This document shows positions 8,766-51,418 of a stretch of 53,681 nucleotides of DNA, one piece after another (positions within the stretch are counted from its first letter, which is position 1; each line of letters opens with the position of its first letter). Under the pieces are notes generated by a model that worked only from the letters and a program-made list of their open reading frames with translations, searched no databases and had not been told where the DNA came from. Source of the stretch: a virus. Position numbers and translations under genes: made by a program. The stretch is taken from the IMG/VR virus record IMGVR_UViG_3300025645_000098, positions 1-53,681 of that record. The stretch is one strand, 5' to 3'.

Positions 8766-10325
8766 ATGGCAAAATTAAAACCACAAGGTAAACTTGCAAT
8801 TGTAATTCTTATCGCTATTATAGCGGCTGGTGGATTGTATTTTACTGGAAATTTAGACTTCTCTACACTTATGCCAAGTGTAGATAATGTCGTTACCAAA
8901 GATGGTACAAAGAAAAAGGCAGTAAGAAAGTCAAATAGTGACGCTCTTACAATTAATGTTGGTGTTGTAACATGGGGTGGATATGCTGGTGGACAGTATT
9001 TCAACAACGGTTTTGACGCTAACGAATCTTCAAGATTCTATAAGGACTATGGGTTCTATGTGGAATTTAAAATCTTAGACGATTTCGATGCATCTCGTAA
9101 TGCATGGAAGAATGGTGATGTAGACTTACTATGGGCCACAACTGGTTCATTTAGTACAGAAGCACCTGGTCTAGCAGAATTTGAACCAGAAATTGTATTT
9201 CAATCAGATTGGTCACGAGGTGGTGATGCAGTAGTTGTACGAAAAGGAATTAATAAGGTTAATGACTTAAAAGGCAAATCTATCGCAGTTGCACCAATGA
9301 CACCATCACATACGTTCTTCTTGAACTTATTAGATGCTGGTAATCTTAATGCAAGTGACTTAACTGTAATTGAAGTGGCTAATGCAATTGATGCAGCCGC
9401 TATGTTCAAGAATGGTCAAGTAGATGCGGCAGTAGTATGGTCACCAGACGATATAAGTTGTGTTAAAACAGTAAATGGGTCTAAAGTACTTCAATCTACT
9501 AAACAAGCTTCTAACATTATTGCTGATGTATTCATCGCTAAGAAATCATTTATTGATTCTCATAATGCTGAATTATCTCAATTAGTTGAAGGTTGGATGA
9601 TTGGTGCATCAGAAATTAACACTAGTGCAAGTGCTAAAAATAAAGCAGTGACAATATTATCAGAAGGTCTTAATATCGCTCCAGATGAAGCATTAGGTGC
9701 GATTGACAATGTAAGATTAACTACATATGGTGATAATCTTAATTTCTTTGGACTTAACCCATCATTTGATGGTGTAACTGGTGAGAAGATTTATGGTAAG
9801 ATGTCAGAAAAATATAAATCAATTGGTTACTTACAAGGTAATACGTATTGGAGAACTGTTGCAAACCCTAATATTATAAGAAACATTACTTTAAATGGTT
9901 CTCAACATAATGCAGAAGGTATGGCTACATTCTCAGCTCCAACAGCTGTTATGGCAGATGTTAATATAACAAGTGCGGTGTCAACTAAACAAGTAACTGT
10001 ATCATTTCCAACTGGTAGTGCAACATTAACTGAAAATGCCAAGTACATTATCGATAAAGAATTCTTAGATATAGCTCAGAACTTTGCTAATACACGTATT
10101 AGAGTTGCTGGGAATAGTGATAACACTGGGAGTTATGGAAATAATATATCATTATCAAAACGTAGAGCACAAGCTGTTGCTACGTACTTATCTACTGAAC
10201 ATGGTTTCGATAGAAACAGATTTGTAGTAGTGGGTAATGGTCCTGACAATCCAGTAGCAAGTAATACTACTGCGGAAGGTAGAGCAAAAAATAGAAGAAC
10301 TGACTTTGAATTAATTTCACAGTAG
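8766..10325 (+). CDS. Periplasmic substrate-binding protein fused to an OmpA peptidoglycan-binding domain
   Basis: 519 aa. An N-terminal membrane anchor (about residues 10-27) is followed by a NitT/TauT (NMT1/SsuA-like) binding domain, about 55-330, with VVTWGGYAGG, DLKGKSIAV and QVDAAVVWSPD. The C-terminal ~110 residues are OmpA-like, including SLSKRRAQAVATYL and GRAKNRRTDF. The protein would sit at the inner membrane and bind peptidoglycan. The family imports nitrate, sulfonates, bicarbonate or pyrimidine precursors; the ligand is not predictable. Upstream of the matching permease and ATPase, separated by an attenuator-like hairpin. Confidence 0.88.
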   Translation: MAKLKPQGKLAIVILIAIIAAGGLYFTGNLDFSTLMPSVDNVVTKDGTKKKAVRKSNSDALTINVGVVTWGGYAGGQYFNNGFDANESSRFYKDYGFYVEFKILDDFDASRNAWKNGDVDLLWATTGSFSTEAPGLAEFEPEIVFQSDWSRGGDAVVVRKGINKVNDLKGKSIAVAPMTPSHTFFLNLLDAGNLNASDLTVIEVANAIDAAAMFKNGQVDAAVVWSPDDISCVKTVNGSKVLQSTKQASNIIADVFIAKKSFIDSHNAELSQLVEGWMIGASEINTSASAKNKAVTILSEGLNIAPDEALGAIDNVRLTTYGDNLNFFGLNPSFDGVTGEKIYGKMSEKYKSIGYLQGNTYWRTVANPNIIRNITLNGSQHNAEGMATFSAPTAVMADVNITSAVSTKQVTVSFPTGSATLTENAKYIIDKEFLDIAQNFANTRIRVAGNSDNTGSYGNNISLSKRRAQAVATYLSTEHGFDRNRFVVVGNGPDNPVASNTTAEGRAKNRRTDFELISQ

Positions 10326-10338
10326 TTAAAGAATTCAC

Positions 10339-10400
10339 AAAAGGAAGTCTAAGGAATACATAGCGATTAGCTGTCTACCCTACTTACACTTCCTTTTTTT
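10339..10400 (+). terminator. Attenuator/terminator between binding protein and permease
   Basis: A 10-bp stem AAAAGGAAGT/ACTTCCTTTT closes a ~40-nt loop and is followed by a T tract. It is expected to lower permease/ATPase expression relative to the binding protein, a common ratio in ABC importers. The long loop could also be a separately stable RNA. Confidence 0.6.
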
Positions 10401-10411
10401 AATAAAAACAC

Positions 10412-11206
10412 ATGAAAAATCTATTTAAATTAAGAGGTGAATTATCTAGAAAAACTGAGACCATAATTGGTTTAAGTGGTTTAGCTATCATCTTATTAAC
10501 TTGGTATGTGCTTACGAGTAGTGGTATGGTAGCAAAATCTATTTTACCAAATCCAATTGACGTTCTTAAATCTTTTAAAACATTACACTTTGATAAGTTT
10601 TTAGTTAAGAATACACTTTATTCATTAAAACTTAATTACTTAGGCTATATTGAAGCTGTTTTAATTGCAGTTCCATTAGGATTTACAATCGGTTTAATAC
10701 CGTTTTTTAGAGCGTTACTTTCTAAGTACGTAGATTCTAGTCGATTTATTCCATTAACCGCTCTAACGGGCTTATTTATAGCTTGGTTCGGTATATATGA
10801 TAATATGAAGGTGCAGTTTTTAGCATTTGGTATATTTGTTTACTTATTACCAATCGTTGTTCAAAGAATTAGCGAAGTTGATAAAGTATATGTACAAGCC
10901 GCTCAAACTTTAGGTGGTAGTAAATGGCAAATCATTAAGCATATATTTGTACCCGCAGTTCTTAGTAAACTATTTGATGATATTAAAGTTATTGTTGCTA
11001 TTTCTTGGACCTATATTATTATTGCAGAAATGCTTAATAGTACAGGTGGAATTGGTGCCATGATATTTAAATCAGCTAGACAAAGTAGAACTGAAGAAGT
11101 ATTTGCCTTGTTAATAGTAATTGTATTGATTGGTATAGTACAAGATAGGTTATTTACTTGGACTGATAAAATATTATTTCCACATAAACATTTAAAGAAA
11201 GCATAA
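10412..11206 (+). CDS. ABC importer permease (NitT/TauT family)
   Basis: 264 aa with about six hydrophobic helices. The EAA cytoplasmic loop that docks the ATPase reads AAQTLGGSKWQIIKHIFVPA (about residues 168-187). Overall size and layout match SsuC/TauC. It lies 1 nt before the ATPase gene, forming the membrane channel of the importer. Confidence 0.9.
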   Translation: MKNLFKLRGELSRKTETIIGLSGLAIILLTWYVLTSSGMVAKSILPNPIDVLKSFKTLHFDKFLVKNTLYSLKLNYLGYIEAVLIAVPLGFTIGLIPFFRALLSKYVDSSRFIPLTALTGLFIAWFGIYDNMKVQFLAFGIFVYLLPIVVQRISEVDKVYVQAAQTLGGSKWQIIKHIFVPAVLSKLFDDIKVIVAISWTYIIIAEMLNSTGGIGAMIFKSARQSRTEEVFALLIVIVLIGIVQDRLFTWTDKILFPHKHLKKA

Positions 11207-11207
11207 A

Positions 11208-12020
11208 ATGGAATTTATAAACGATTTGAGCAAACCTGACGTTATTGAATTAAAGGGAATTGAAAAATTTTACGGTGAAGGTGATGCCAAGAAAACAATA
11301 ATTAAAGATTTTAATTTTCTTCTTGAAAGAAATGAGAATATCGTTAATGGTAAACGATATGGCCAATTCAAAACTATTTTAGGACCTTCTGGTTGTGGAA
11401 AATCTACAGTTCTTAGAATGATAGCTGGCCTTACCGAACCTAGTGGTGGTAAAGTATTAATTGATGAAAAAGAAATCATCGGAAATCCTAATATTGGGAT
11501 GGTGTTTCAAAAGTACTCTAATTTTCCATGGTACACAGTTCTTGAAAATGTAGCACTAGGGTTAAAATTTAAAGGTATTGGAAAGAAAGAACGCAATGAG
11601 AAAGCCATGGAAATGATTAAGTTGGTTGGCCTTGATGGTCATGAGAATAAATTCGCTCAATACCCAACATTATCTGGTGGTCAATTACAACGTGTAGCAA
11701 TTGCTAGAAGTCTGGTATCAAGCCCTAATATACTATTAATGGATGAACCATTTGGAGCGTTAGATGTAAAAACTAGACTACAGATGCAAGATTTATTAGT
11801 TGAAATTTATGAAACAATTAACCCTACTATCATCTTTGTAACTCACGATATTCAAGAAGCTGTATATTTGTCTGATGATATTTATATAATGGGTAGAGCA
11901 CCTAGTAGATTCATTATGCACTATGATATAGATTTGCCATTTGAGAGAAAGGGGATTAAAAGAAATCCTATGTTTAACAAGATTGTCGAGCAAATCGAAG
12001 ATTATATGATGACAATTTAA
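11208..12020 (+). CDS. ABC importer ATPase (NitT/TauT family)
   Basis: 270 aa. Walker A GPSGCGKST, Q-loop GMVFQKYSNFPW, signature LSGGQLQRVAIARSL, Walker B ILLMDEPFGALD and switch His in THDIQEA are all intact, so it should be active. SsuB/TauB-like length. Completes a full importer with the fused binding protein and permease. Confidence 0.93.
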   Translation: MEFINDLSKPDVIELKGIEKFYGEGDAKKTIIKDFNFLLERNENIVNGKRYGQFKTILGPSGCGKSTVLRMIAGLTEPSGGKVLIDEKEIIGNPNIGMVFQKYSNFPWYTVLENVALGLKFKGIGKKERNEKAMEMIKLVGLDGHENKFAQYPTLSGGQLQRVAIARSLVSSPNILLMDEPFGALDVKTRLQMQDLLVEIYETINPTIIFVTHDIQEAVYLSDDIYIMGRAPSRFIMHYDIDLPFERKGIKRNPMFNKIVEQIEDYMMTI

Positions 12021-17736: not shown

Positions 17737-19401
17737 ATGAAAAAAGTTATTATTACGATGTTTTTGTTGTGCACATCATTAATCTTCGCACAACTACCAG
17801 ATGGTTACGTTTCTGAACAATTAATTGACACTTATAACAGTCCAATGGACGTTGAATTTATTACTGGTAGACCTGATATGATGGTTATAGCTGAAAGAGC
17901 TGGTAAAATTTGGATAGCTGATTTAGTAAATGATAATTGGGTCAAGAGAGATAACCCAGTAATAGATATTACAAATCAAGTAACTACTTATTTTGAAAGA
18001 GGTATACAAAGTATCATTGTTGACAGACATTTTATTTATGTTTATTATACCGTTGAAGAGACTTATTTACTCCCAGGGTTAAATGAAGATGTAAATGATG
18101 ATTCAGCAACAATAAATAGGGTGTCTAGATGGGAAATATCATGGCCACAAAATATTGAGTTTGGTGAAGAAATATTAATTGGTAAAACACCATCTGATGG
18201 GATTCCATCTACAGCTGGAAATCATCAAGGTGGTGGTATGGCTTGGGGTGAGAATAACATGTTATTCGTTTCAACTGGCGATGGTGGAAGTGGTATTTTT
18301 AATCAACAAGCCATTGATAGAGGAATTATGAGAGCTGAATTAAATGTAAATGGGGGTAGTAAAAGTCAAATTATTAATTGTCTTAATGGAAAATTATTAA
18401 GAATTAATCCATGGAATGGTGATGGTGCTAACGGAAATCCATTTTATGATTCTAATAATAGACGAACACCAGAATCTAGGGTTTATGCTTTAGGGTTTAG
18501 AAATCCTTTTGATATAGTAGGTAAACCATATATGGGGGTTAATAATCAACCAACAACAATATACGTTGCTGATGTGGGTGAGGGTAATAAAGAAGAAGTT
18601 ACCCTAATAGATAAAGCTGGTTTAAATGCTGGGTGGGGGTTACGTGAAGGATTTAGTACTAGGACTTTATCTGGTAATAATCCAGATGAAGGCGTACCTT
18701 ATTCTGACCTTATGAGTGAAGCAACTTCATTTGTTGAAGTGTCTGACGATACACAAAGACGATTTACACATCATCCACCTGAATTAGATTATGGGCATAG
18801 TGGAAACCCATTAACTAGATTACCTAGATTTACTGATGGGGTATTAGACCCAATAATTGATGTAAACGCCATTGAAGGAAATTCAATTACTGGTGGTGCT
18901 TATATATCTGGTGATGGTTTTGGTGAAAATTATAACGGTGCTTATATATTTAGTGATTATTCTAGAGGTTGGTTGAATATTGGAATACCTTATGTAGACC
19001 AAAGTAATGATAGATATTTTGATTATATAGAAGAATTTGCACCAATTAATTCTTATCCAGTTACAATAGATATTACTCAAAACCCAATTGATGGGTCAAT
19101 ATATATAGTAACATTATTTGGAGATATTCATAGAATTTCTTTAAGTGAAACATTATCAATTCAAACTCCATCATTAAATGATGAAATTAAAATTATTTAT
19201 GATAATAATACTAATCTTAATTCTATTGTTGGTATTAATAATATGGCAACACTAAAAATATATGATTCATTAGGTAGATTTATATCTGAAGATACAATCT
19301 ATGATTACCATATTATTGATTATAAATTACAGAGTGGTATTTATATTGCTCATATTATAAATGATAGTAATATATTGGTAAAAAAATTCATTATTAAATA
19401 A
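17737..19401 (+). CDS. Secreted glucose/sorbosone dehydrogenase-like beta-propeller with type IX tail
   Basis: 554 aa. Signal peptide (about residues 1-19, ending FAQ), then a PQQ-sugar-dehydrogenase-family beta-propeller: NSPMDVEFI, GNHQGGGMAWG, LYA-type blade motifs, VYALGFRNPFD, YVADVGEGNKEEV, LNAGWGLREG. The last ~75 residues (ATLKIYDSLGRFI, LQSGIYIAHII, KKFIIK) are a classic type IX sorting domain. It should be exported to the cell surface by the host. Soluble PQQ dehydrogenases oxidise sugars; cofactor residues were not verified. Monocistronic between two RNA loci. Confidence 0.88.
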   Translation: MKKVIITMFLLCTSLIFAQLPDGYVSEQLIDTYNSPMDVEFITGRPDMMVIAERAGKIWIADLVNDNWVKRDNPVIDITNQVTTYFERGIQSIIVDRHFIYVYYTVEETYLLPGLNEDVNDDSATINRVSRWEISWPQNIEFGEEILIGKTPSDGIPSTAGNHQGGGMAWGENNMLFVSTGDGGSGIFNQQAIDRGIMRAELNVNGGSKSQIINCLNGKLLRINPWNGDGANGNPFYDSNNRRTPESRVYALGFRNPFDIVGKPYMGVNNQPTTIYVADVGEGNKEEVTLIDKAGLNAGWGLREGFSTRTLSGNNPDEGVPYSDLMSEATSFVEVSDDTQRRFTHHPPELDYGHSGNPLTRLPRFTDGVLDPIIDVNAIEGNSITGGAYISGDGFGENYNGAYIFSDYSRGWLNIGIPYVDQSNDRYFDYIEEFAPINSYPVTIDITQNPIDGSIYIVTLFGDIHRISLSETLSIQTPSLNDEIKIIYDNNTNLNSIVGINNMATLKIYDSLGRFISEDTIYDYHIIDYKLQSGIYIAHIINDSNILVKKFIIK

Positions 19402-24830: not shown

Positions 24831-24876
24831 AACCCTATCATTTATTTGGTGGGGTTATTTTTTTTTAGTATCTTTG
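24831..24876 (+). promoter_or_regulatory. Overlapping terminator and promoter
   Basis: Stem AACCCTATC/GGTGGGGTT (24831-24839/24848-24856), loop ATTTATTT, T tract. TTG 24846-24848 and TATCTTTG 24869-24876 with a 20-nt spacer. The hairpin is base-for-base the same as the one at 28503. Confidence 0.8.
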
Positions 24877-24897: not shown

Positions 24898-25776
24898 ATG
24901 AAAAATTTTGCAATCTCAAACGAGAGAATTACAAAAAGAGAAACACGTTCAATGAATTCATATTTTAATGAATTGAATAAAATACCTTTATTAACATCAG
25001 ACGAAGAAGTTGAATTGGCAACTCTTAGTAAAAATGGTGATGAAAATGCTAGACAGAAATTAGTTAAACATAATTTAAGATTTGTTGTTAGTATTGCTAA
25101 AAAATATACTACCCCAAATATTAAGATTGAAGATTTGATTAATGAAGGAAATATCGGTCTTATCATTGCCTCTCAAAAATTTGACCCAACAAGAGGATTC
25201 AAATTTATTTCTTATGCTGTATGGTGGATTAGGCAACAAATGTCGGCTTATATTTCTCAAACTTCAAAAATTATTAGGACTCCTGATAATAAAAATAATG
25301 AATTGTATGCAATAAAAAAGTGTGTTAGTTTACTAGAACAAGAATTAGAACGTAAGCCATCTTATGATGAAATAATAGAAGTATTAGAAAAATCTTATTC
25401 TGAAGCCAGTATTAATTTCTTTCTCAATAGAGATAGAATTTTTACTAAATCATTAGATGAACAATTCACTGAAAATTCAGATTCGGGTTCGTTAATTGAT
25501 TCAATTAGGGATTCAAATAGTAATAACCCAAGCAATACTTTAGATTCAACTCATTCAATATATAATATAAATACATTATTAAATAAATTAAATGAACGGG
25601 AATCGTTGGTTCTTCAATTATTATTTGGTTTTAATGGTTATGAACCTAAAACTCCGAAGGAAATTGCTATTGAATTAGGTGTTACATCAACTTTAATTTT
25701 AGTGATAAAACGTAAAGCACTTAAAAAATTAAAATATAAACTACAAGGTAATGCCAGTTGGATGATTGAAAATTAA
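24898..25776 (+). CDS. Sigma-70 family factor (first of two)
   Basis: 292 aa. Region 1.2 begins about residue 18 (SMNSYFNELNKIPLLTSDEE). Region 2 includes LVKHNLRFVVSIAKKY, DLINEGNIGLIIA and FISYAVWWIRQQM (core binding and -10 recognition), and region 4 lies in the last ~60 residues (LFGFNGYEPKTPKEIAIEL). Resembles the host Bacteroidota primary sigma in its N-terminal style. Paralogue at 50549, with an identical ~40-nt stretch in region 2. Likely redirects host polymerase to phage promoters; the glycine-rich genes follow. Confidence 0.92.
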   Translation: MKNFAISNERITKRETRSMNSYFNELNKIPLLTSDEEVELATLSKNGDENARQKLVKHNLRFVVSIAKKYTTPNIKIEDLINEGNIGLIIASQKFDPTRGFKFISYAVWWIRQQMSAYISQTSKIIRTPDNKNNELYAIKKCVSLLEQELERKPSYDEIIEVLEKSYSEASINFFLNRDRIFTKSLDEQFTENSDSGSLIDSIRDSNSNNPSNTLDSTHSIYNINTLLNKLNERESLVLQLLFGFNGYEPKTPKEIAIELGVTSTLILVIKRKALKKLKYKLQGNASWMIEN

Positions 25777-25785
25777 ACACTAAAT

Positions 25786-25917
25786 ATGAATATAAAGATT
25801 TCAAAAGGTGAGGGTTCTGGTTATGGTTCTGGTAATGGTAATGGTTCTGGTTTTGGTTTTGGTTCTTGTGGTTATGGTGATGGTAATGGTTGTGGTGATG
25901 GTTATGGTAGAGGTTAA
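25786..25917 (+). CDS. Glycine-rich protein 1 of 6
   Basis: 43 aa: MNIKISKG then alternating Gly-X dipeptides (X = E, S, Y, N, F, C, D, R). Codons are almost all GGT plus NNT/NNN. It shares start, leader and N-terminal octapeptide with the next five genes. Confidence 0.75.
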   Translation: MNIKISKGEGSGYGSGNGNGSGFGFGSCGYGDGNGCGDGYGRG

Positions 25918-25929
25918 AAAATAAAATAT

Positions 25930-26184
25930 ATGAATATAAAGATTTCAAAAGGTGATGGTGATGGTTATGGTAATGGTTATGGTAATGGTGATGGTGAGGG
26001 TAATGGTAATGGTTTTGGTGTAGGTGGTCATTCTGGTAATGGTTCTGGTTCTGGTAATGGTAATGGTGCTGGTGAGGGTTATGGTGTTGGTTATGGTGAG
26101 GGTTCTGGTTCTGGTTCTGGTTCTGGTAATGGTAGAGGTTCTGGTTATGGTGATGGTTGTGGTGATGGTTATGGTAGAGGTTAA
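25930..26184 (+). CDS. Glycine-rich protein 2 of 6
   Basis: 84 aa: MNIKISKG, then (GX)n with one interruption GVGGHSGN. Leader TAAAAAATAAAATAT-ATG is shared. No membrane or signal segment. Predicted disordered or fibrous. Confidence 0.75.
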   Translation: MNIKISKGDGDGYGNGYGNGDGEGNGNGFGVGGHSGNGSGSGNGNGAGEGYGVGYGEGSGSGSGSGNGRGSGYGDGCGDGYGRG

Positions 26185-26196
26185 AAAATAAAATAT

Positions 26197-26493
26197 ATGA
26201 ATATAAAGATTTCAAAAGGTGATGGTAATGGTTATGGTAATGGTGATGGTGAGGGTTATGGTTTTGGTGTAGGTGGTCATTCTGGTAATGGTTCTGGTTC
26301 TGGTAATGGTAATGGTGCTGGTGAGGGTTATGGTTGGGGTGATGGTTATGGTGATGGTTCTGGTTCTGGTACTGGTTCTGGTTCTGCTTCTGGTTCTGGT
26401 TCTGGTAGAGGTTCTGGTAATGGTAGAGGTTATGGTTCTGGTAATGGTTATGGTAGAGGTGCTGGTTATGGTAGAGGTTATGGTAATAGTTAA
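26197..26493 (+). CDS. Glycine-rich protein 3 of 6
   Basis: 98 aa, the longest copy. Shares the FGVGGHSGNGSGSGNGNG block with copy 2, so the two arose by duplication. Contains one Trp (YGWGDG). Other + frames give long V/M runs that are shadows of the repeat. Confidence 0.75.
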   Translation: MNIKISKGDGNGYGNGDGEGYGFGVGGHSGNGSGSGNGNGAGEGYGWGDGYGDGSGSGTGSGSASGSGSGRGSGNGRGYGSGNGYGRGAGYGRGYGNS

Positions 26494-26505
26494 AAAATAA
26501 AACAT

Positions 26506-26793
26506 ATGAATATAAAGATTTCAAAGGGTAATGGTGATGGTTCTGGTGATGGTTCTGGTAATGGTAATGGTATAGGTTCTTTTTGGGGTTATGGTTATGG
26601 TGATGGTTCTGGTGATGGTGAGGGTTCTGGTACTGCTGGCGGTTATGGTTATGGTTGTGGTTCTGGTGCTGGTGAGGGTTATGGTGTTGGTTCTGGTGAT
26701 GGTTCTGGTTTTGGTAATGGTTCTGGTCGTTATGGTTCTGGTGATGGTTATGGTTCTGGTTGTGGTGATGGTTATGGTAATGGTATAGGTTAA
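26506..26793 (+). CDS. Glycine-rich protein 4 of 6
   Basis: 95 aa: MNIKISKGNGDG start, GX repeats with IGSFWGYG and GTAGGYG interruptions. Ends GNGIG. Confidence 0.75.
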   Translation: MNIKISKGNGDGSGDGSGNGNGIGSFWGYGYGDGSGDGEGSGTAGGYGYGCGSGAGEGYGVGSGDGSGFGNGSGRYGSGDGYGSGCGDGYGNGIG

Positions 26794-26805
26794 AAAATGA
26801 AACAT

Positions 26806-26892
26806 ATGAATATAAAGATTTCAAAGGGTAATGGTGATGGTTATGGTTCTGGTTCTGGTTATGGTTATGGTAGAGGTCATGGTATAGGTTAA
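26806..26892 (+). CDS. Glycine-rich protein 5 of 6
   Basis: 28 aa: MNIKISKGNGDGYGSGSG then YGYGRGHGIG. Shortest copy; its retention of the full leader and N-terminus argues it is expressed. Confidence 0.65.
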   Translation: MNIKISKGNGDGYGSGSGYGYGRGHGIG

Positions 26893-26904
26893 AAAATGAA
26901 ACAT

Positions 26905-27105
26905 ATGAATATAAAGATTTCAAGAGGTTATGGTTCTGGTGCTGGTAATGGTTATGGTGGTTGGGGTGGTGGTAGTTCTGGTTCTGGTACTGCTTGTGGT
27001 TCTGGTTATGGTTCTGGCGAGGGTGATGGTTATGGTGATGGTTATGGTAGAGGTTCTGGTAGAGGTGTTGGTAGAGGTTCTGGTTATGGTTCTGGTTCTG
27101 GTTAA
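26905..27105 (+). CDS. Glycine-rich protein 6 of 6
   Basis: 67 aa: MNIKISRG start (Lys to Arg), GX repeats with GGWGGGSSG, Arg-rich end (RGSGRGVGRGSG). The start at 26905 matches the other copies; an upstream ATG (26896) adds MKH only. Confidence 0.75.
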   Translation: MNIKISRGYGSGAGNGYGGWGGGSSGSGTACGSGYGSGEGDGYGDGYGRGSGRGVGRGSGYGSGSG

Positions 27106-27133: not shown

Positions 27134-27164
27134 TTGTTAGTTTAAAAAATAAGTTATATATTTG
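27134..27164 (+). promoter_or_regulatory. Bacteroidota-type promoter
   Basis: TTG 27134-27136, TATATTTG 27157-27164, 20-nt spacer. Confidence 0.75.
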
Positions 27165-27189: not shown

Positions 27190-27501
27190 ATGAAAAACGA
27201 TTTATTAGGAAAAGAAGTAATGATTAGAACTTATTCAGCTGGAGTTCACTATGGTAAACTAAGTAAAGCTAAAGCTATTAAAGGTGGTTATAGTGTTAAA
27301 TTAACTAATAGTACACGAGTTTATTCTTGGGCTGGTGCTTGCACTTTAAGTCAATTAGCAACTGAAGGTACCAAAAATACTGAAACTAAGTTATCTGTTA
27401 AAGTACCTAGTATTTATTTAAATGCTATTGAAATCATAGAAATGGATGATTTGGCTTCTAAAAGATTAAATGAAATCCCAACTTGGAAGATAAATAATTA
27501 A
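27190..27501 (+). CDS. Conserved phage protein (DUF6948-like)
   Basis: 103 aa. VMIRTYSAGVHYGKL near the start and RVYSWAGACTLSQLA in the middle are hallmarks of a small phage family of unknown function. One nt before the next gene. Confidence 0.7.
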   Translation: MKNDLLGKEVMIRTYSAGVHYGKLSKAKAIKGGYSVKLTNSTRVYSWAGACTLSQLATEGTKNTETKLSVKVPSIYLNAIEIIEMDDLASKRLNEIPTWKINN

Positions 27502-50548: not shown

Positions 50549-51418
50549 ATGCGAAAATTAGAAACTACTTCAGAATCTATTACTGTAAAAAGTACACAAT
50601 CAATAAAAAAATACCTATATGATTTATCACAAATACCATTATTAACGCCAGACGAAGAATACGAATTATCAGTATTAGCATTTGAAAAAAATGATGAAGA
50701 AGCTAGACAGAAATTAGTTAAACATAATTTAAGATTTGTTGTTAGTGTTGCTAAACAATATAAGACCAAGGATATTGGCCTTGAAGATTTGATTAATGAA
50801 GGGAATATTGGACTTATTAGTGCCTCTCAAAAATTTGACCCATCAAGAGGATTCAAATTTATTTCTTATGCTGTATGGTGGATTAGAAGAAATATATTAG
50901 CATTTATTACAGAAAATTCTGAAACAGTTAGAATACCAAGCAATAGAAGTTCTACCAATTATAAAATTGGTCAAAAATGTAAAGAGTTAGAACAAAAATT
51001 ACAACACGAAGCAACATATCACGATATTCTAAATGAATATGGTAATATGTTTAAGAAAGAAGAGGTGGCTTTTTACTTTGAAACTGTAGGTTTTAGAACT
51101 ACATCATTGGATAATCCAATTGGTGAATCTACATCATCAGATACTTATGGTTCATTGATTGAAGATGAAAAGGTTTTAAAACCAACTCACTTCGTCAATC
51201 AACTTGATAGTATCTATAATCGTGAGGTAATTTTAAATATACTTAAAGATAATTTGGAACGTGAAGTGATTAAATTCTTATTTGGTCTTGATGGAAAAGA
51301 ACCATTATCTCTAAAACATACAGCCTTTATTCTCGGTCTTTCAAGTGAGAGAATTAGACAAATAAGAGATAAGGCATTTAGAAGACTTAAAATTACCTTA
51401 AAGGATAAAAATAACTAA
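50549..51418 (+). CDS. Sigma-70 family factor (second of two)
   Basis: 289 aa. Same plan as the 24898 gene: SIKKYLYDLSQIPLLTPDEE, LVKHNLRFVVSVAKQY, DLINEGNIGLISA, FISYAVWWIRRNI, and region 4 with LSLKHTAFILGLSSERIRQIR. Regions 2 are nearly identical between the two, but regions 3-4 differ, suggesting recognition of different -33 elements or timing. Confidence 0.92.
   Translation: MRKLETTSESITVKSTQSIKKYLYDLSQIPLLTPDEEYELSVLAFEKNDEEARQKLVKHNLRFVVSVAKQYKTKDIGLEDLINEGNIGLISASQKFDPSRGFKFISYAVWWIRRNILAFITENSETVRIPSNRSSTNYKIGQKCKELEQKLQHEATYHDILNEYGNMFKKEEVAFYFETVGFRTTSLDNPIGESTSSDTYGSLIEDEKVLKPTHFVNQLDSIYNREVILNILKDNLEREVIKFLFGLDGKEPLSLKHTAFILGLSSERIRQIRDKAFRRLKITLKDKNN

Follow-up and report, generated by a model that had tools for sequence, protein, structure and literature searches.

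A DUF6948 protein with a predicted Sm-like fold is paired in phages with hypervariable alternating-glycine mini-proteins

Glycine-rich repeats occur in phage adhesins, where the polyglycine II type forms domains of larger virion proteins, and some eukaryotic Sm proteins carry tails of glycine-rich dipeptides. The nearest model for the locus described here is Hfq: in E. coli its Sm core is modulated by a disordered tail (PMC5606850), and in Acinetobacter its C-terminus is glycine-rich and repetitive (PMC5663733). The phage module that we report, a DUF6948 gene accompanied by genes for proteins that are largely Gly-X repeats, resembles Hfq in combining an Sm-type core (predicted in the case of DUF6948) with a variable tail that is likewise predicted to be disordered, the glycine-rich repeat of Acinetobacter being the nearest match. 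It differs in that core and tail are separate genes, apart from one natural fusion, and lie in early operons, in that the Gly-X tail is strictly alternating and hypervariable, and in that the DUF6948 core lacks a significant sequence match to archaeal Sm proteins. The eukaryotic and archaeal Sm/LSm proteins share the predicted fold and account for the listed PDB matches, but DUF6948 has an extra helix between its predicted third and fourth strands, and the profile comparison is not significant. With the polyglycine II adhesins the Gly-X proteins have in common a glycine-rich repeat in a phage protein; they differ in being mini-proteins of early regions with strict alternation. Two family entries come closest: PF22253, to which the DUF6948 gene of our locus belongs, and phrog_18306, neither of which gives a function or annotates the Gly-X partner as such. 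The pair has apparently remained undescribed until now, overlooked because low-complexity filters hide its Gly-X half and because the other half is a DUF. Open-access literature yielded no paper on DUF6948 by name and no occurrence of the Gly-X motif strings tried; a tblastn search of isolate phages with a Gly-X protein gave no match, the low-complexity filter probably removing the query, and scans of PHROG, Pfam and NCBIfam returned compositional matches only, for example TrAA12.

Our starting point was a 53.7-kb IMG/VR record (53,681 nt, here called the window), which is probably only part of a larger phage genome. Its host probably belongs to the Bacteroidota, since Bacteroidota-type promoters are enriched on the + strand, with 23 pattern matches there and 5 on the - strand against about 5.7 expected. 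One such promoter (TTG-N20-TAnnTTTG, 24846-24876, + strand, a consensus match only) lies 21 nt upstream of the ATG of an RNA polymerase sigma factor gene (24898-25776, + strand; Sigma70_r2 E 7.1e-18, phrog_351 E 1.8e-59), which probably heads a single operon with the six Gly-X genes that follow on the same strand. These encode 43 aa (gene 1, 25786-25917), 84 aa (gene 2, 25930-26184), 98 aa (gene 3, 26197-26493, sharing the block GVGGHSGNGSGSGNGNGAGEGYG with gene 2), 95 aa (gene 4, 26506-26793), 28 aa (gene 5, 26806-26892) and 66 aa (gene 6, 26905-27105). Genes 5 and 6 have a second in-frame ATG three codons upstream (MKHMNIKIS...), at 26797 and 26896, from which their products would measure 31 and 69 aa. 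The array, spanning 25786-27105, had been described in an earlier note, made from the sequence alone, as six tandem Gly-X mini-genes with a common MNIKIS(K/R)G start, and we find the reading frames and starts as described: all six begin with this octapeptide and continue into a Gly-X body. The same note had put one leader before all six genes. For genes 2-6 this holds, each being preceded by the 12-nt leader or spacer AAAATRAAAYAT; gene 1 departs from it, starting 9 nt after the stop of the sigma-factor gene and preceded by ...AATTAAACACTAAAT. Separate translation units that arose by repeated duplication of the whole unit, with a fixed N-terminus and a body free to vary, are likewise supported. 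The window contains two sigma-70-like genes, the one that heads the Gly-X operon and another at 50549-51418; the Pfam basis is for the first only.

In all but the first gene, the alternation itself goes well past what the residues would give by chance. When the residues of each gene were shuffled as a control, the body glycines falling in one alternating phase averaged 21.3 for gene 2, 23.8 for gene 3, 23.3 for gene 4, 6.5 for gene 5 and 16.5 for gene 6, against the observed 38/39, 43/44, 32/43, 11/11 and 27/30; gene 1, whose alternation has a phase slip, stands at 10/18 with a shuffled mean of 10.2. On the strength of this glycine phase we rejected chance ORFs as the source of the six genes. 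They share the features by which we define the Gly-X class as a whole: alternating glycine, a polar or aromatic X, and, behind a short start, a repeat that extends over almost the entire chain.

Directly after the array lies a gene for a 103-aa DUF6948 protein (27190-27501, + strand; PF22253 73.3 bits over a cut-off of 27, E 1.7e-20), with an ATG 26 nt downstream of a further Bacteroidota-type promoter (TTG-N20-TATATTTG, 27134-27164, + strand, again matched to the consensus only). Judged from these motifs, the Gly-X genes and the DUF6948 gene of the window appear to be under separate promoters. The adjacency extends well beyond the window. Clustering of neighbouring ORFs at Gly-X loci gave one dominant neighbour at distance zero, the DUF6948 protein, and a profile built from this neighbour placed it next to Gly-X in 65 of 94 Gly-X loci. 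The converse test used DUF6948 alone as bait, fetching viral loci with three divergent subfamilies and counting a Gly-X run of at least 12 residues: among the matches listed, such a run lay just downstream in 222 of 231 evaluable loci (96%), or 71/77, 76/77 and 75/77 by subfamily. As background, 72 of 1540 random stretches from the loci of the first subfamily contained a Gly-X run, with the Gly-X gene itself included. The window phage, whose Gly-X genes lie upstream, was excluded from these counts; its pair shares one strand in an order reversed from the usual one.

Further signs of a tight association come from the junction between the two genes. The Gly-X start usually overlaps the DUF6948 stop, and in 53 of 77 loci of the first subfamily an ATG sits at one identical offset inside the DUF6948 3' end. 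In one contig (L154) the two parts form a natural fusion, a single ORF of 236 aa, and the single profile phrog_18306 matches both a Gly-X part and a DUF6948 part. Among isolates, the pair is present in Iodobacter phage PhiPLPE, where the Gly-X ORF is unannotated, in Pectobacterium phage Taid, Dickeya phage Setonix and Vibrio phage IKEMa6-1, in the Chlorobiaceae phage CV-1-33 (MT192033.1), where the Gly-X gene is annotated in the wrong frame (MAMAMAL...), and in a sixth phage genome, MW202898. DUF6948 and Gly-X are a widespread phage two-component module, of which the six genes of the window are one local array, and the pair is nearly restricted to viruses. Of 795 genomes sampled from two phyla, one, of the Bacteroidota group, contained PF22253; the prophage-like contig on which it lies encodes DUF6948 and Gly-X proteins identical in reading to those of CV-1-33. 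The pair also occurs in one Monoglobus record and one Neisseria gonorrhoeae record. In the latter (NZ_CP119142.1, 1151041-1154298) there are three DUF6948 places, one of which was read and has an overlapping 97-aa Gly-X ORF; the 2.17-Mb record is filed as a plasmid, its size suggesting a chromosome. One relative of the window DUF6948 has no Gly-X tract within its 53-kb fragment.

Alternating-glycine scans of viral contigs, in which a composition filter removed the wrong-frame artefacts and simple AG/LG/VG/RG repeats that generic scans bring up, recovered at least 81 loci with closed, largely Gly-X ORFs, most of about 70-110 aa, carrying many unrelated N-termini and in several cases arranged in tandem. 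A single one of these loci came from a like scan of bacterial and archaeal genomes, which otherwise found mostly Gly-X tracts within larger proteins and this one stand-alone candidate. Long arrays occur in two large phages. In one (L545), about 20 Gly-X genes, most tagged ME(I/V)xSYGKNxD, surround a DUF6948 gene; in the other (L546), 14 genes tagged M(I/V)(D/N), with many 4-nt stop/start overlaps, include 13 that lie behind a DUF6948 gene. In the sequence data, many phages have either one Gly-X gene or an array with up to about 20 of them, so that the statement in the earlier note that no stand-alone multi-copy set was known is superseded. At seven loci we also noted Gly-X fused to small phage domains, either DUF7666 or domains recognisable by 'DGLxTLIDxVHGN', 'LHAT...GALKREI' or 'GACxDGV'.

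What is conserved in these chains, as far as can be read from sequence, is alternation and composition (Y, S or N, and D), and not the exact sequence. Over 209 contigs of 23-73% GC, whose tracts were partly pre-selected for composition, the X position kept to Y 0.24-0.38, S 0.25-0.32 and D 0.17-0.25, while the G+C share at the third position of glycine codons went from 0.30 to 0.93. At DUF6948-anchored loci, which were not picked by Gly-X, the X alphabet differed between DUF6948 subfamilies at matched GC, being Y/S/D in one and Y/N/D in another (p = 6e-20, a value overstated by related sequences). The class is protein-coding on this evidence, because the X alphabet stays constant over 23-73% GC while codon third positions flip, and because it tracks the DUF6948 subfamily. 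Subfamilies also have features of their own: in one, P(V/I)G stands near the Gly-X start in 65/71 and a basic tail is present in 61/71, and in another an extra 'LHA(T)' domain occurs in 33/59. The earlier note had proposed that MNIKISKG is a targeting or nucleating tag; since start motifs track the DUF6948 subfamily, a tag role in general is plausible.

Close relatives reveal how quickly the bodies turn over. The DUF6948 genes of eight Pectobacterium/Dickeya phages share 88-100% DNA identity, and the Gly-X N-terminus MSKLIKPE(K/R)YG is fixed among them, with rearranged bodies; the Gly-X proteins measure 53-89 aa and their length differences are always even numbers of residues. Ymer and Amona are each one DUF6948 codon off Taid, and the Gly-X bodies of all three differ. 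The random frame breaks in close relatives that the earlier note would have counted against its own reading occur in none of the eight, whose lengths change in 2-aa steps only. In the class as a whole, chains run to about 50-110 aa, with a body that changes quickly in two-residue steps behind a short N-terminal motif that is kept.

Structure prediction and genomic setting bear on what the pair may do. AlphaFold models the window DUF6948, whose domain measures about 100 aa, with high confidence as a small barrel (pLDDT 94.7). Foldseek lists 50 PDB matches for this model, each of them an Sm/LSm protein or a complex that includes one; probabilities are near 1 and the best TM, normalised to the target, is 0.78, with E-values of only about 0.01. 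On the other hand, an hhalign comparison with 23 archaeal Sm proteins gave no significant match (probability 0.24%, E 0.25), its best alignment falling in the Sm1 register, and DUF6948 matches neither LSM in Pfam nor any PDB sequence. Because the profile comparison is not significant, we make the claim for the fold and not for the family: DUF6948 looks like an Sm protein in its model, and other small barrels are possible. For Gly-X gene 3 AlphaFold gives no structure (pLDDT 29), and the Gly-X chains are predicted to be disordered. Recurrent same-strand neighbours of DUF6948 are RecT, RecE/exonuclease VIII, SSB-like and DnaB-like genes; tail or capsid genes were absent from the recurrent neighbours checked, and in the Pectobacterium phages the pair lies on the strand opposite to the neighbouring tail genes. 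Since the recurrent neighbours are early recombination and replication genes, the module looks like an early one and not part of the virion.

Our preferred reading, to which we give a probability of roughly 0.4, is that DUF6948 forms a ring, Hfq- or Sm-like, that binds nucleic acid and receives its disordered tail in trans from Gly-X. Early in infection, the putative DUF6948 ring would bind nucleic acid, probably RNA, of phage or host origin; Gly-X would dock on the ring through the fixed Gly-X N-terminus and, as the disordered tail of the ring, could tune binding or bring the complexes together in condensates. The six genes of the sigma-factor operon would supply these tails in the window, with DUF6948 following behind its own putative promoter. 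Several observations sit uneasily with this: the Foldseek E-values and the non-significant profile comparison noted above, the DUF6948 relative without a Gly-X tract in its fragment, the many Gly-X genes per DUF6948 gene, odd for a simple stoichiometric tail, and, in the window, the reversed gene order with apparently separate promoters. A more ambitious version we consider rather unlikely: separately encoded, interchangeable disordered chains, hypervariable in sequence, would dock through a short N-terminal motif on a phage-specific Sm-like ring and concentrate RNA or DNA in condensates early in infection, the whole being one two-gene module across phages of several bacterial phyla in which selection acts on the composition and alternation of the chain instead of its sequence. 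Were the Sm-like reading true, phages would possess a counterpart of Hfq with a detachable tail, and a simple system for RNA control or condensates in infection. More generally, the Gly-X proteins amount to a naturally occurring library of disordered proteins in which the ends and a rule of composition are fixed and the sequence is free, so that one can ask what composition alone encodes. Hundreds of viral contigs contain the pair, and its presence in isolate phages of Pectobacterium, Iodobacter and Vibrio brings gene-deletion tests within reach.

The main rival to this reading is an anti-defence or host-takeover pair, in which DUF6948 and Gly-X would together inhibit a defence system or another host protein, and the hypervariable chain and its arrays would reflect an arms race, as decoy or sponge, instead of RNA handling. 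Anti-defence and takeover genes commonly sit beside early recombination genes, as this pair does, and the near restriction to viruses, the independent expansion of arrays and the very fast body turnover between phages one DUF6948 codon apart all fit such a role. A chain that escapes or hits a target would, however, not usually be held to so strict a composition and alternation over unrelated phages, and scanning Pfam, PHROG and NCBIfam gave no match to a known anti-defence family. We regard this explanation as possible though somewhat unlikely, and it is compatible with the Sm-like model.

A structural role as virion fibre, adhesin or silk-like protein, towards which the earlier note leaned, would agree with the glycine-rich repeats known from phage adhesins, and Gly-X alternation could give a beta-sheet with all glycines on one face. 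That suggestion had missed the constant partner DUF6948, whose same-strand neighbours are early recombination and replication genes with no tail or capsid gene among those checked, and AlphaFold gives the chain no structure. We rejected it on the early-gene neighbours and on the Pectobacterium pair running opposite to the neighbouring tail genes, and consider it very unlikely. About as unlikely is a RiPP-like modified peptide or secreted product, with Gly-X as the precursor and DUF6948 as a recognition or processing factor: a short conserved leader before a variable core rich in Ser, Tyr, Asn and Asp, a small partner protein encoded adjacently and arrays of paralogous cores all recall such systems, but the neighbours grouped in two clusterings did not include a recurring modifying enzyme, protease or transporter, the conserved start is a short one, and DUF6948 is a predicted small barrel without a recognised catalytic family. 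A DNA- or RNA-level repeat (a G-quadruplex tract or recombination hot spot) with the reading frames as a by-product is extremely improbable and was rejected, for although GGTNNT tracts could form two-tier G4s and fast length change is typical of simple repeats, amino-acid composition stays constant while third codon positions move with GC, the X alphabet follows the DUF6948 subfamily, lengths change in 6-nt multiples only and without frame breaks, and N-termini and start overlaps are conserved.

Returning to the window array, an exact-pattern search of viral contigs for the tag followed by Gly-X found the same cluster in two further IMG/VR contigs, L008 and L010. Another array, of five genes whose tag and spacer match those of the window but whose bodies differ, lies in contigs of 119 kb (L007) and 78 kb (L009), neither of which has a DUF6948 match. 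This second array is probably located elsewhere in the genome of the window phage, because L009 and L010 come from one common metagenome and because the tetranucleotide correlation between the second locus and the window is 0.988, compared with 0.84-0.91 for other AT-rich phage loci.

Other genes of the window deserve mention in their own right. Between 32203 and 47099 there is a dense set of NAD/ADP-ribose and RNA-repair genes, comprising an ADP-ribosylglycohydrolase, NADAR, a macro domain, Tpt1/KptA, Thg1, a NUDIX protein, a nicotinamide/nicotinate phosphoribosyltransferase and a PRPP synthetase, which we take to resemble phage NAD-salvage and anti-NADase functions. At 8766-12020 lies an ABC-transporter-like set, in which a substrate-binding protein fused to an OmpA domain (by Pfam) precedes a permease and then an ATPase, these two assigned by reading only. 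Finally, a glucose/sorbosone dehydrogenase-like protein is encoded at 17737-19401, phage-borne and with an apparent C-terminal sorting domain of Bacteroidota.
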